Assembly: GCF_002950575.1 (NCBI RefSeq)
Contig: NZ_CP026923.1
Location: 1,674,001-1,738,000 of the forward strand
Direction of reading: 5' to 3'
From: Pontimonas salivibrio
Lineage (GTDB): Bacteria; Actinomycetota; Actinomycetes; Actinomycetales; Microbacteriaceae
Length of the DNA: 64,000 nt
The notes under the pieces are model-generated. The model saw nothing but the letters and a program-made list of their open reading frames with translations. It had not been told where the DNA came from and ran no database searches. Of this stretch, positions 24,835 to 49,347 are shown one piece after another. A program made the translations under genes and the position numbers. Every line of letters starts with the position of its first letter. The first letter of the stretch is position 1.

Positions 24835-26004
24835 GTGGACACTCTGGGCGATATCCGAGATGACACCCGAGCTGGGTTCCGCGCAATTTACGGAAAAGAC
24901 CCGCACGGTCTGTGGTCGGCACCTGGCGTCATGCGCCTCATTGGCGATCACACCGAATATGCCGACGGTCACACCCTGTGCCTGGCACTGGATGTGCGCA
25001 CGGTGGTGGCCCTCGGAGTTCGAGAGGACCGCACAATCCGTGTCGCCAGTGTCGACCAAGACGAAATTGCCGAAATTTCTTTGGACGACTTGGACTCTGA
25101 GTCTCTAGAAGGTTGGCCACAGTACCCCCTGGGTACCGCGTGGGCCATGGGGCAATTCGGTGCGGACCTTCAGGCCGTACCCGGGGTGGACCTTTACATC
25201 GATTCTGATGTTCCCACCCGCGTGCGGATGGGTTCCTCTGTGGCACTCACAGTGGCCGTTGCTCTTGCGTTGCGGGACGCCTGGCAAATCGATGCTGACC
25301 TGGGCCAGCTGGCCCGGATCTGCAACCTTTCCGAATCTCTTGCGGCAGGCGAAGATGTCGGCCTTGGCCCCATCCTCGCCTCCCTGGCCGGCAACGCCGA
25401 CCAGGGAGTCCTTGTCGATGGGCGCAGTAAAGATTTCGAAAACGTGCCACTTGGTTTACAAACCCATGACCACACCCTGATGTTGGTCCACACCCACGCT
25501 GAACCTCGGCCGCTCCCACCGCTCGCCGAACGACTACAAGCCATCGAACATGTCGCCGATGCCCTGAGCGTTCCCTCACTTCGAGAAGCGCAGGCAGTCG
25601 ACATGAAGCAGCTTGTCAGTAACAAGAGTGTGGACTCCCAGGAATTGGCATTAGCCACACACGCGGTGAAAGAAAATGTCCGGGTGTTAGAAGTGGTGCG
25701 CACACTTCGTGAAGACGGCCCTGAAGCAATCGGCCAAATTTTTGCCGACTCACACCAGTCTCTAGCGGACGCATTTGGGGCACACACGCTCGATGTTGAC
25801 CTTGCCGTCAGTATCGCCTTGGATAACGGCGCCAGTGCCGCGCGGTTGCTTGGCCACCGCACCTCCGGCTCGGTAGTTGCCCTCGTGCCGAACGACGCAC
25901 TGAGCCGGATCTCTCAAGCCCTTGATACGGGCTTTAGTGAACACGGCCTTGCGACACCCGATGTGGTGATTGTGAACCCCAGCGATCACGCGACCCGTCA
26001 CTAA
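24835..26004 (+). CDS. Divergent galactokinase-like GHMP kinase
   Basis: 389-aa GHMP-superfamily protein. The N-terminal substrate motif is APGVMRLIGDHTEYADG, close to the galactokinase signature but with Met-Arg in place of Val-Asn. The phosphate-binding loop is shortened (TRVRMGSSVALTVAVALAL). The third motif, normally Gly-rich, reads LLGHRTSGSVVALV, without the usual G-G-F-G-G. It is galactokinase-like by overall order and length, but the altered motifs make activity or substrate uncertain. GTG start; divergent from the CPBP gene. No galT or galE nearby. Confidence 0.68.
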   Translation: MDTLGDIRDDTRAGFRAIYGKDPHGLWSAPGVMRLIGDHTEYADGHTLCLALDVRTVVALGVREDRTIRVASVDQDEIAEISLDDLDSESLEGWPQYPLGTAWAMGQFGADLQAVPGVDLYIDSDVPTRVRMGSSVALTVAVALALRDAWQIDADLGQLARICNLSESLAAGEDVGLGPILASLAGNADQGVLVDGRSKDFENVPLGLQTHDHTLMLVHTHAEPRPLPPLAERLQAIEHVADALSVPSLREAQAVDMKQLVSNKSVDSQELALATHAVKENVRVLEVVRTLREDGPEAIGQIFADSHQSLADAFGAHTLDVDLAVSIALDNGASAARLLGHRTSGSVVALVPNDALSRISQALDTGFSEHGLATPDVVIVNPSDHATRH

Positions 26005-43169: not shown

Positions 43170-43341
43170 AGCTACAGAGTACGCGCCACTGGTGACCTCA
43201 AAAAACGACTCCCCGCGCACCCACCAGAGCCCAGCGACCCTTGCTACGTTTCCGTCCTGGGGGATTGACCGAGATGGCGCCACGCGAGGAGCCAACCTCA
43301 AGTCTACCGTTAGGATTGGGAGGGCCCTTCGGGGCAGAGCC

Positions 43342-43429
43342 GGAGGATTCGCCTAGTGGCCTATGGCGCACGCTTGGAAAGCGTGTTGGGTTAACGCCCT
43401 CGGGGGTTCGAATCCCCCATCCTCCGCCA
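43342..43429 (+). tRNA. tRNA-Ser (GGA) with encoded CCA
   Basis: Class II cloverleaf: acceptor GGAGGAT with ATCCTCC, anticodon loop containing CTTGGAAAG (anticodon GGA), an extra arm, T-arm GGGGGTTCGAATCCCCC, discriminator G and encoded CCA (43427-43429). The last 15 bases of the gene plus one more are repeated twice downstream, each time before an IS481-type unit; the tRNA itself is complete. Confidence 0.95.
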
Positions 43430-43430
43430 A
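43415..43430 (+). repeat. 16-bp tRNA-Ser 3' repeat, copy A
   Basis: CCCCATCCTCCGCCAA: end of the T-arm, the acceptor 3' strand, discriminator, CCA and one A. This original copy is part of the tRNA gene. Perfect further copies are at 43814-43829 and 45197-45212. The IS481-type unit begins right after it with TGT. Confidence 0.9.
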
Positions 43431-43813
43431 TGTGGTGTCTCACGACATCGTTGATAGATGTCTCGCGACATAGTTGAGAGTTGTGAATTTCCGCGGGATC
43501 CCTCTTACGCCGGCTTCTCGCGTGGCGATCGCCTCTTCTCAGGGCTGGTAGGCGCAAGCTTGCCTGCCCTTTTGAATACGGGCAGGCAAGTTTGAAAAAG
43601 GGTGAGAACGGCTGCTTAAAGGGACATGGCGCTGCGGAAAAGGAACGCTCGGCAGTAGCCCGTTATGAACCTCAGAGATGGATTCCTGCTACCTCGAGAT
43701 AGGAACTATGTCGTGACACATCAAAAAGTGAACCCCCATTCCTCAGGAACCCCCGCGTGCGCAATATCAACGATGTGGTGAGACAGATATCAACGATGTC
43801 CTGAACCTGGACA
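43431..43813 (-). mobile_element. Internally deleted IS481-type unit (383 bp)
   Basis: Begins TGTGGTGTCTCACGACATCG directly after the tRNA and ends ...GGACA before repeat copy B. Its first 47 bases match the left end of the intact unit at 43830 with two differences; its last 49 bases are identical to that unit's right end. Bases near 43708-43735 match the promoter side of the intact unit (GTCGTGACACATCAAAAA). The transposase gene is gone; the centre (about 43478-43705) is unrelated. It is therefore a non-autonomous, deleted relative. Confidence 0.75.
43559..43590. other. Strong hairpin in the deleted IS481-type unit
   Basis: CTTGCCTGCCC and GGGCAGGCAAG form a perfect 11-bp stem with a 10-base loop, followed by TTTG. 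It may be the former terminator of tRNA-Ser displaced by insertion, or a hairpin carried by the unit. Confidence 0.45.
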
Positions 43814-43829
43814 CCCCATCCTCCGCCAA
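43814..43829 (+). repeat. 16-bp tRNA-Ser 3' repeat, copy B
   Basis: Exact copy of the 16-bp tRNA-Ser end CCCCATCCTCCGCCAA between the deleted and the intact IS481-type units. With copy C it directly flanks the intact unit, as a target duplication would. Confidence 0.9.
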
Positions 43830-45196
43830 TGTGATGTCTCAGGACATCGTTGATAGATGTCTCGCGACATAGTTGATATTCAAGGGTTCGCTGCGTCGCG
43901 ATTCGGCCAGCGTCCTGCGGGTTTGAGTGTGTTGGGCCAGTAGTTCTTTTCAGGGTTGATGTGGTGTTGGCTGAGGACTTCGCCGGTGGTGAGTTCTGTG
44001 ATGGTGACCGTGGTGTCGTCGATGAGCATGAGGACTCTTTTTCGTGCGTTTTCGACTCGGCAGCCAAGGTGGTGCATTTTTCCGGCGCGCCTTAGTGAGC
44101 CTTTGCCTTTGGGGTCGAGTCGGTCGATGCGAATTCGGTAGTGGGTGGCGTCTGCTGGGGTGCGTGGGGTGGCTTTGGGTGTGGAGTGGTAAGCGTGGTC
44201 GGGTGTCTGGCCTTCTAGGGACCTGTGGGGTCTTTTGGTGTTGTAGGCGTGTTGGAACTCGTCTAGTTGGTGTTGTAGTTCGTGGAGGTTTTCCGCGGGG
44301 GGCCTGGCGGCGAGCCAACGTTTCTGGGTTTGGTGGAAGCGTTCGATTTTGCCTTGGGTTTGGGGGTGGTTGGGGGAGCCGTTTTTCTGTCGAATACCGA
44401 GGGCTGCGGGGAGGTATTCGAAACCGTTTCGTCCTCCGGTGAAGCGGGAGGTGTAAACACTTCCGTTATCGGTCAGGGTGGGCTCTGGCAGGCCGTAGTA
44501 GTCAGTGTTTTGGGTGAAAGTATCGATCACGATGTCTCCGGTGATGCGCGGGTGGGCGTGGAGGGAGAGTAAGAATCGGGAGTGGTCGTCCAACCAGTTG
44601 ATGATTTCAATGTCGGTGCCGTCCGCGAGTCGCCAGTGGGTGAAATCAGATTGCCAACACTCGTTGGGTTGGTCGGCTTGGAAGCGAATGTAGGAAGACT
44701 TGGGGCGTTTTTTGGGTTCGGGAATGATCAGGCCAGCCCGTTTCAGAATGCGACTAATTGTTGAGCGAGACGGTGCGGGGAGGCCCTCATGGATCAGGCG
44801 GTCTCTGATGGAATGGGGGCCTGCATCGAAACCCTCGTGAGTGAGTTGACGGCGTAATTCAAGGACGCGATTAGCGGCCTCGGGCGCAGTGTGGTTTTTG
44901 TTGCTTCGGGGTTTTCGGGAGCGGGGTTCTAACCCGGCGTCGCCCTCGCGTTCGTAGCGGGTGACGAGCTCGTGGACCCATTGCCACGAGACACCATATT
45001 TTCGTGCGACCTCAGCTTTCGTGAGGCCTTGCTGGACGACAGACAGAACAATTACCCGTGACTTTGACATTCCTCATTCTGCTGTGAACGGTGTCGTGAC
45101 ACATCAAAAAACGAACCCCCGAGGGTTTCGATAACCTAAGAAGCGACTATCAACGATGTGGTGAGACAGATATCAACGATGTCCTGAACCTGGACA
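43830..45196 (-). mobile_element. Intact IS481-type insertion sequence
   Basis: 1367 bp with TGT...ACA ends. Inverted termini are TGTGATGTCTCAGGACATCG at the left and, on the opposite strand, TGTCCAGGTTCAGGACATCG at the right. Each end holds two copies of a related motif (ACATCGTTGATA then ACAT-x-GTTGATA: 43839-43878 and 45148-45187), likely the transposase binding sites. One transposase gene on the minus strand fills the interior. Direct repeats of 16 bp from tRNA-Ser flank it on both sides. Confidence 0.88.
43880..45070 (-). CDS. IS481-family transposase
   Basis: 396 aa. N-terminal HTH (LTKAEVARKYGVSWQWVHEL), a basic linker (EPRSRKPRSNKNHTAPE), second HTH region (STISRILKRAGLIIPEPKKR), and an rve core with catalytic residues in ECWQSDFTHWRLADGTDIEI (Asp), PEPTLTDNGSVYTSRF (Asp) and TQGKIERFHQTQKRWL (Glu). 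A C-terminal beta domain follows (VLMLIDDTTVTITEL). All catalytic positions are present, so it may be active. Start ATG; about 125 bp separate it from the right end of the element. Confidence 0.92.
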   Translation of the reverse strand: MSKSRVIVLSVVQQGLTKAEVARKYGVSWQWVHELVTRYEREGDAGLEPRSRKPRSNKNHTAPEAANRVLELRRQLTHEGFDAGPHSIRDRLIHEGLPAPSRSTISRILKRAGLIIPEPKKRPKSSYIRFQADQPNECWQSDFTHWRLADGTDIEIINWLDDHSRFLLSLHAHPRITGDIVIDTFTQNTDYYGLPEPTLTDNGSVYTSRFTGGRNGFEYLPAALGIRQKNGSPNHPQTQGKIERFHQTQKRWLAARPPAENLHELQHQLDEFQHAYNTKRPHRSLEGQTPDHAYHSTPKATPRTPADATHYRIRIDRLDPKGKGSLRRAGKMHHLGCRVENARKRVLMLIDDTTVTITELTTGEVLSQHHINPEKNYWPNTLKPAGRWPNRDAANP

Positions 45197-45212
45197 CCCC
45201 ATCCTCCGCCAA
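45197..45212 (+). repeat. 16-bp tRNA-Ser 3' repeat, copy C
   Basis: Third exact copy of CCCCATCCTCCGCCAA. It borders the right end of the intact IS481-type unit and is followed at once by another truncated IS left end (45213-45234). Confidence 0.9.
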
Positions 45213-45234
45213 TGTGGTGTCTCAGGACATCGTT
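45213..45234 (-). mobile_element. Truncated left end of a third IS481-type unit
   Basis: TGTGGTGTCTCAGGACATCG plus TT, matching the left ends at 43431 and 43830, then diverging into unrelated sequence. It shows that at least three units once lay in tandem here, or that the array ended by deletion. Confidence 0.65.
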
Positions 45235-48155: not shown

Positions 48156-48238
48156 TGACGTGACCCCATTTTTTAGGTCCGAAAGTTATGAGAGTCGTCT
48201 TGCGGCCAGCGTCAGCTGGCAGAAAGACTGTGAACATC

Positions 48239-48523
48239 ATGACGAAAAGGAAGAAGCGGCATTCGCCGGAGCAAATCGTTCGGAAAATCCAGGACGCTGA
48301 TCGCATCCTCGCCCAGGGCGGTGACGTTGCTGCCGTGTTGAAAGAGCTGAATGTCACGGAGGCGACGTATTACCGGTGGCGAAACCATTACGGCGGTTTG
48401 AAAGCAGAAGACGCGAAGAAGCTCAAAGCGTTGGAGAAGCAGAATTTGCAGTTGAAGAAACTGCTCGCTGAAGCAGAACTCGAAAAAGCAGTCCTCAAGG
48501 AGTTGGCTGAGGGAAACTTCTAA
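48239..48523 (+). CDS. IS3-family transposase OrfA (HTH)
   Basis: 94 aa from ATG 48239 (MTKRKKRHSPEQIVRKIQDA). HTH_Tnp_1 domain with VLKELNVTEATYYRWRNHYG and a C-terminal coiled coil (KLKALEKQNLQLKKLLAEAE) for dimerisation. The end GAG GGA AAC TTC TAA holds the slippery heptamer. The frame is open further upstream to 48188, which lies within the terminal repeat region. Confidence 0.9.
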   Translation: MTKRKKRHSPEQIVRKIQDADRILAQGGDVAAVLKELNVTEATYYRWRNHYGGLKAEDAKKLKALEKQNLQLKKLLAEAELEKAVLKELAEGNF

Positions 48524-48544
48524 GCCCGACCAGTCGACGTCGGG
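48511..48544 (+). promoter_or_regulatory. Programmed -1 frameshift signal of the IS3-family element
   Basis: Slippery heptamer GGGAAAC (48511-48517) in the orfA frame as G GGA AAC, 7 bases before a perfect 6-bp hairpin CCCGAC/GTCGGG (48525-48530 with 48539-48544). The -1 frame is open from 48511 into orfB. Together these allow an OrfAB fusion transposase. Confidence 0.8.
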
Positions 48545-48546
48545 CC

Positions 48547-49347
48547 GTGATTCATGTGATGTCAGTCTTTGACATCAGTGAGCGGCTCGCCTGTCGACTA
48601 GTCGGGCTATCCCGGTCTGCATTCCGCCGACGCTTGCAACGTGAGCGCCCTGATGATCCAGATCGGGCCCTTCGGGCGTGGTTGCGTGACTATGCGCGCC
48701 GTCATGCCCGGTGGGGGTATCGGCGGGCGTATGTTGACGCCCGCCGTGACGGTTGGCAGGTGAACCATAAGAAAATTCAACGCCTCTGGGCTGAAGAAGG
48801 ACTCCGCGTGGTGGTGAAACGCCGCCGGAAACGAATCGGTGTGTCAACCGTCCCAGCAGTGGTCGCTGAGAAAGCCAATGATGTGTGGTCTGTCGACTTC
48901 CAGTTCGACTCAACCATCACAGGCAAACCGATCAAGATTCTCTCCATCGTTGATGAACACACCAGAGAATGCTTGGGCGGCCTCGTCGACTACTCCATCA
49001 CTGGGCTGGATCTAGCGGAACAACTCGACGTGTTGGCGTTGGAGCGGGGCATGCCAAAAGCACTGCGGATGGATAACGGGCCAGAGCTGGTCAGTAAAGC
49101 CTTGGCCGAGTGGGCTAGTGAAACAGACCGGGTATTCATCCCGCCAGGGCAACCCTGGCGAAACGGATACGTCGAGTCATTCAACGGCAAAATCCGAGAC
49201 GAATGCCTCGGGGTCAACCAGTTTTACTCACTCAACCACGCCAAAGGCATCATCGGGCTCTGGAAGGAGGAATACAACACCATCCGGCCGCACTCATCGC
49301 TCGGCTATTCAACCCCGAGCATTTATGCTGGCCAATGCACCCACTAA
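48547..49347 (+). CDS. IS3-family transposase OrfB (DDE)
   Basis: 266 aa from GTG 48547, most likely made as an OrfAB fusion by the -1 frameshift just upstream. HTH_21 region (ARRHARWGYRRAYVDARRDG; KKIQRLWAEEGLRVVVKRRR) and the rve core with catalytic Asp in DVWSVDFQFDSTITGKPIKI, Asp in LRMDNGPELVSKALAEWASE and Glu in GYVESFNGKIRDECLGVNQF. C-terminal EEYNTIRPHSSLGYSTP is typical. All catalytic residues are present. Confidence 0.93.
   Translation: MIHVMSVFDISERLACRLVGLSRSAFRRRLQRERPDDPDRALRAWLRDYARRHARWGYRRAYVDARRDGWQVNHKKIQRLWAEEGLRVVVKRRRKRIGVSTVPAVVAEKANDVWSVDFQFDSTITGKPIKILSIVDEHTRECLGGLVDYSITGLDLAEQLDVLALERGMPKALRMDNGPELVSKALAEWASETDRVFIPPGQPWRNGYVESFNGKIRDECLGVNQFYSLNHAKGIIGLWKEEYNTIRPHSSLGYSTPSIYAGQCTH

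Follow-up and report, generated by a model that had tools for sequence, protein, structure and literature searches.

The genome of Pontimonas salivibrio (Actinomycetota, Microbacteriaceae) carries, directly behind a gene for tRNA-Ser(GGA), a tandem array of insertion sequences (ISs) of the IS481 type, which we analysed within a stretch of 64,000 nucleotides (contig NZ_CP026923.1, positions 1,674,001 to 1,738,000), hereafter the window; coordinates are those of the window and refer to the + strand unless stated otherwise. The tRNA gene (43342..43429), recognised with ARAGORN and by Rfam (RF00005), is the intact target gene of the array and has an encoded CCA. A preliminary description, made from the sequence alone, had reported a 16-bp sequence, CCCCATCCTCCGCCAA, in three exact copies starting at 43415, 43814 and 45197, and all three were confirmed (copy A, 43415..43430; copy B, 43814..43829; copy C, 45197..45212), against a chance expectation of 0.06 copies even with two mismatches tolerated. 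The repeat equals the final 15 bases of tRNA-Ser(GGA) (tRNA positions 62-76, encoded CCA included) plus one A. As had been described, an exact copy precedes each of the elements that follow the tRNA: unit 1 (43431..43813, 383 bp), non-autonomous and with both ends present; unit 2 (43830..45196, 1367 bp), an intact IS481-family element bounded by TGT...ACA and equipped with a transposase gene; and a third element, presumably the oldest, which is reduced to approximately 22 bp of its left end (45213..45234).

Unit 1 had been taken for a deleted copy of unit 2. It is indeed partial, but not a mere deletion derivative: its first 47 bp (96% identity) and its last 111 bp (81%) match unit 2, whereas its middle part of approximately 225 bp is unrelated to it. 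Since the right end of unit 1 shows the same 81% identity to unit 2 and to the copy found in a sister species, unit 1 is not a tandem duplicate of unit 2. The two junctions of the array, each composed of a right end, the repeat and a left end, are 99% identical across 87 bp. In unit 2, alignment of left ends delineated two subterminal repeats (TCAGGACATCGTTGATA and TCTCGCGACATAGTTGATA; 43830..43881), and the right end (45145..45196, - strand) likewise has two, its tip TGTCCAGGTTCAGGACAT containing GGTTCA.

The sole gene between the ends of unit 2 encodes a transposase of 396 amino acids (aa) and reads towards the tRNA (43880..45070, - strand); the other open reading frames (ORFs) listed overlap it or are short. 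The protein passes the NCBIfam IS481 model NF033577 (258.2 bits, cut-off 224) and scores just below the cut-off for the IS481 leucine-zipper domain PF13011 (21.4 bits, cut-off 22.2). Residues D142, D201 and E243, invariant among 54 sequences, are the DDE catalytic residues of an RNase H fold. In the predicted structure (mean predicted local distance difference test score, pLDDT, 88.8) helical helix-turn-helix (HTH) domains at residues 3-47 and 63-111 are followed by the DDE core (126-300) and then by a beta barrel of six strands (312-370). Over its full length the model matched the folds of IstA of IS21 (E 6.5e-17) and TnsB (1.5e-15) best, and the DDE core alone matched retroviral integrases (Z ~21, 162 residues, root mean square deviation 2.1). 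The element ends are TGT...ACA inverted repeats, TG...CA in a few relatives, with paired subterminal repeats. No tyrosine recombinase gene was found between the repeats, the lone gene there having rve and HTH domains, and the core is of the DDE/rve type instead of the DEDD type of IS110/IS1111 (seekRNA) transposases. The duplications of 15-16 bp stand at the long end of the IS481 range, which is 6 bp for the most part and reaches about 15 bp.

Two further lineages occupy tRNA ends in the same genome (1.76 Mb, 46 tRNA genes). One element, with 68% DNA identity, follows tRNA-Ala(CGC) and has CCCTCAGGTCCACGT as its repeat; the other (L347, in the segment 22500-26000 in genome coordinates), decayed, more distant, of IS481 type and approximately 410 bp long, lies behind tRNA-Ser(CGA) (genome coordinates 25733-25819, - strand), and its 15-bp repeats CCACCGGTACCGCTG and CCACCGGTACCGCCG differ in one base. 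Three element lineages are thus found behind 3 of the 46 tRNAs, and no copies of these lineages were found in the genome away from tRNA genes.

Relatives from the Microbacteriaceae, the order, the phylum and named genomes were fetched by similarity of the transposase or the element, never by tRNA neighbourhood, and identical flanks were removed in the pooled table. Apart from 20 copies truncated or cut off on the tRNA side and 21 distant IS481 controls, this table held 174 scorable copies, 129 of which adjoin an intact tRNA 3' end (127 scored by script, and two, L135 at tRNA-Ala and L190 at tRNA-Pro, missed by the pattern and added by hand). Another 24 adjoin a T-arm and 3' tRNA sequence that belong to no intact tRNA. 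Sorting of the others was done by eye from the flanks: nine are tandem units, bordered on the left by the right end of another element together with the tRNA repeat (the window, L068, L075, L077, L089, L120, L138, L179 and L203); three (L140, L288 and L292) are inserted in non-tRNA DNA that retains the core G-N-R-GGTTCR; and nine lie elsewhere, namely three of a Bifidobacterium type (L152, L189 and L276) and six that are mostly decayed or unclear (L084, L098, L154, the second copy of L235, L237 and L281). A permissive ARAGORN search of the exceptional sites returned noise only. None of the 21 distant controls ends at a T-arm, their three pattern matches being due to chance or lying off the element's end.

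Thirteen tRNA isotypes serve as sites (Ser 27, Ala 25, Pro 20, Leu 18, Arg 18, Tyr 8, the rest fewer); none of the scored copies uses tRNAs for Glu, Gln, Ile, His, Cys, Asn or Trp. Copies with identical transposases within one genome, and hence recent, were found at Phe, Ala(CGC) and Ala(GGC) tRNAs and at a 3' fragment in genome G127, and genomes G316 and G444 each hold four such copies at different tRNA genes or fragments; G089 has near-identical ones. The earlier proposal that elements inserted repeatedly and in one orientation at the tRNA end, with a duplication of about 16 bp that leaves the tRNA whole, is thus supported from the genome of P. salivibrio itself up to the phylum and the named genomes. 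The search of Microbacteriaceae genomes that the preliminary description had suggested found copies at tRNA ends with matching repeats, and the contrary outcome that it had named, other copies at unrelated sites with short duplications, did not appear. The tRNA 3' end stands as the target; the restriction to tRNA-Ser does not, since tRNA T-arms at large are used.

Insertion is precise to the base. In all on-target cases the repeat starts right after tRNA position 61, following GTTCRANNC, and, of the 101 insertions measured, 93 have 15 or 16 bp between this point and the left-end TGT, the duplicated span running from tRNA position 62 to about 76. The transposase gene is convergent with the tRNA in every case. 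The proposed recognition core, G-N-R-GGTTCR, comprises the 5' strand of the T-stem and the start of the T-loop and reads GGGGGTTCG in the window (43402..43410). The three off-target insertions mentioned above (GTGGGTTCAGTTC, GTGGGTTCAAGT and CAGGTTCGTCGG) are flanked by repeats of 15-16 bp and have this core at tRNA-like spacing, and their 3' side is unable to pair as a T-stem; it therefore seems that DNA sequence, rather than a hairpin, is read. The determinant is likely to lie in the DNA sequence of the 5' T-stem and T-loop, and not in a hairpin or a tRNA product. The T-stem sequence GCGGG is under-used (4 of 129 sites versus 9 of the 46 tRNAs of the window's genome; Fisher p 9e-4, with this one genome as baseline), and the off-target sites bear the favoured T-stem sequences GTGGG and GCAGG. 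Of 101 right ends, 35 have GTTCR close to the tip (for example, 45179-45196 of the window, - strand), as against 0 of 101 left ends, and GGTTCR is enriched in left-end hairpins; the motif in the tips is possibly a mimic of the T-arm target.

A strong hairpin with a T-run, in the direction of the tRNA, was found within 130 bp of the left end in 73 of 156 elements, compared with 5 in the opposite direction, 21 after shuffling (which preserved base composition only) and 15 in an internal stretch. The scan detected no such hairpin in the left end of unit 2 of the window, and a weak one in unit 1 (43547-43568) does not exceed shuffle expectation. The left-end terminator probably replaces the tRNA terminator that insertion would displace.

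In a quick tree of 95 transposases, calculated without bootstrap, the tRNA-associated ones form one clade (78 rows; Shimodaira-Hasegawa-like approximate likelihood ratio test, SH-aLRT, 99) apart from the controls. The hosts are mostly Actinomycetota (Micrococcales, Mycobacteriales, Propionibacteriales, Acidimicrobiales, Streptosporangiales and others); the clade is also carried by a few Chloroflexota metagenome bins and by one Tissierella assembly, which may represent contamination. A single one of 72,556 plasmid records has a relative, located at a T-arm of a 754-kb Arthrobacter replicon, and no relatives were found in viral contigs or in phage records, a scarcity that is consistent with a need for tRNA genes.

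Some observations concern other IS481 lineages and the surroundings of the array. The Bifidobacterium-type copy L276 has a 15-bp repeat, TGGAAGATTTTCTCC. In genome G1153, three insertions of a more distant IS481 lineage (L209, L217 and L219) lie in a conserved palindromic repeat, GATTTCGGTGCGC...GCGCACCGAAATC, with repeats of 12-15 bp; the right tip, TGTCCTGTTTCGGGACAT, has TTTCGG in common with the target, and this lineage is perhaps another target-specific IS481 group. Another IS481 relative, L211, has a 16-bp target repeat, CAACCGGCGGTTGGAA, that is itself nearly palindromic. In the window, a small signal recognition particle (SRP) RNA (RF00169, 58.7 bits; 43201-43296, - strand) is encoded just upstream of tRNA-Ser on the opposite strand, and two consecutive ORFs approximately 3 kb from the array (48188-49347, + strand) resemble an IS3-type transposase pair. 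A match to sX4 at the array was rejected, as it fell under the gathering score and overlapped the tRNA.

Very probably, then, the element of P. salivibrio is a member of a large IS481-family clade that targets tRNA genes, with the T-arm recognised as DNA by one transposase. We envisage that a single TnsB/IstA-like transposase carries both TGT/ACA ends to the tRNA gene, where the T-arm is recognised through its DNA sequence, with a core of about G-N-R-GGTTCR. The right end would be joined between positions 61 and 62, at the border of T-loop and T-stem, and the left end just past position 76 or 77, and repair would duplicate the intervening 15-16 bp. The tRNA retains its full sequence and its core, which would leave the site open to further insertion, and a lone copy of the 16-bp repeat (positions 62-76), which lacks the core, would offer no new target; new copies would thus be expected to enter next to the tRNA and to displace the older copy, and tandem arrays would result. 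In the window the remnant at the greatest distance from the tRNA is also the most decayed, which is consistent with this order of insertion. About half of the elements, moreover, bring an intrinsic terminator in the left end, in the direction of the tRNA.

Other explanations of the same data were considered. Recombination could have produced the window array by duplicating a single insertion in tandem, an origin also named in the preliminary description, and the near identity of its two junctions is what such an event would leave; the 19% difference between the right ends of units 1 and 2, their unrelated middles and single insertions following the same repeat logic at >120 other tRNA genes contradict it, and we regard it as highly improbable. 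A host factor bound at tRNA genes might recruit the transposase, much as Ty elements are recruited by RNA polymerase III factors. This mechanism operates for eukaryotic tRNA-targeting retrotransposons, but the three non-tRNA sites with the core at tRNA-like spacing are used as well and no bacterial factor reserved for tRNA genes is known to us, which makes such recruitment very unlikely. Equally unlikely is an element-borne RNA or DNA guide pairing with the tRNA gene, comparable to the seekRNA of IS110/IS1111 or the CRISPR RNA of type V-K CRISPR-associated transposons (CASTs). GGTTCA is abundant in right tips and left hairpins, and 14 nt at 45112-45125 are complementary to the T-arm of tRNA-Ser; this 14-mer, carried on the - strand as CCCTCGGGGGTTCG, was nevertheless rejected as a guide, because it lies within a terminator-like hairpin between the right end and the transposase start (45114..45127, - strand; within shuffle expectation) and because copies with identical transposases occur at different tRNAs, which have just the T-arm core in common. 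The non-coding stretches of unit 2 are, furthermore, short (about 50 and 126 bp), and tRNA and SRP RNA were the only Rfam families above gathering score in the window.

It is also conceivable that insertion is loose and that the tRNA 3' end is merely a safe spot where copies survive selection, given that many mobile elements commonly integrate at tRNA genes (PMC11406308) and that the kinds of tRNA are unevenly used. Survival of this sort cannot, however, yield a single exact base, a single orientation and a repeat that always begins at tRNA position 62; related IS481 elements in the same host family are without such a bias, and the recent copies with identical transposases are all at T-arms. 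We hold this explanation to be extremely improbable.

Several points nevertheless weigh against targeting of the T-arm by the transposase itself. The uneven preference among tRNAs is unexplained by the core alone; selection against insertion within tRNA operons may add to it, the baseline for this comparison being one genome. Among the 24 fragment sites, several were perhaps still intact tRNAs when targeted and were split afterwards by an integrative element, and these sites are weaker evidence because such a split could follow the arrival of the IS. The core is missing at copy L237, a clean 15-bp insertion, the mimicry in the tips is partial, and the evidence comes wholly from settled insertions. 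Finally, the Bifidobacterium-type rows (L152, L155, L189 and L276) are nested in the tRNA clade and use other sites. This sublineage represents a probable change of target, judging from its position in the tree, and as a natural specificity switch it would be useful for mapping the target selector.

Where tRNA genes are strictly targeted in bacteria, the agent is normally taken to be a tyrosine integrase or a Tn7-like element equipped with a dedicated target selector. Islands and phages that integrate into tRNA genes by means of tyrosine integrases produce a repeat of the tRNA 3' end, and the tRNA stays functional. The elements described here share the repeat and the working tRNA, but have a DDE transposase and no integrase gene, and we read their repeat as a filled-in staggered cut. 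One transposase of ~395 aa seems to be enough for strict targeting. The open literature yielded no account of IS481-family elements that target tRNA genes; with ISfinder and subscription journals outside that search, novelty is provisional, and the clade is apparently undescribed. It would have up to about 46 safe sites in the genome of P. salivibrio, allows a direct test of how a DDE transposase chooses its target and might furnish a compact tool for insertion without gene damage. It also accounts for many 'IS481 family transposase' annotations adjoining tRNA genes and for tRNA 3' repeats that could be mistaken for attachment sites of islands.

Among the closest known systems is the IS481 family (IS481, ISLxc2; NF033577), as shown by the model score, the TGT/ACA ends and the single ORF. 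The preliminary description had ascribed short duplications to this family, which is right for most described members, typified by ISLxc2 with a duplication of ~6 bp at NCTAGN (PMC2516522), although duplications near 15 bp are already on record for part of the family (PMC10045372). The ISAjo2 group of the IS1202 family (PMC10132070) likewise has a single transposase with two HTH domains, DDE core and beta barrel, TGT/ACA ends, extra inner binding sites and one fixed orientation beside a short conserved target; its target is dif/pdif, its duplication 5 bp and its transposase 441-457 aa long, in contrast to the tRNA T-arm, 15-16 bp and ~396 aa found here. Tn7-like transposons and CASTs with tRNA attachment sites also combine tRNA safe sites, TGT/ACA ends and a TnsB-like transposase, but they need TniQ/TnsD or a CRISPR guide together with an ATPase (PMC11406308); the present element holds one ORF, the transposase gene, with no TnsC ATPase, TniQ/TnsD or guide RNA inside it. 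The Dada DNA transposons of eukaryotes target multicopy small-RNA genes, including those for tRNA (PMC3706591, PMC8869645), and belong to a eukaryotic superfamily; the likeness in targeting need not imply kinship. We think it likely that the clade represents phylum-wide, minimal, single-protein DDE transposons that use the universal T-arm as a landing site, read it directly and bring their own tRNA terminator, and would thus be a bacterial counterpart of the eukaryotic tRNA-targeting transposons, operating without TniQ, ATPase or guide RNA.
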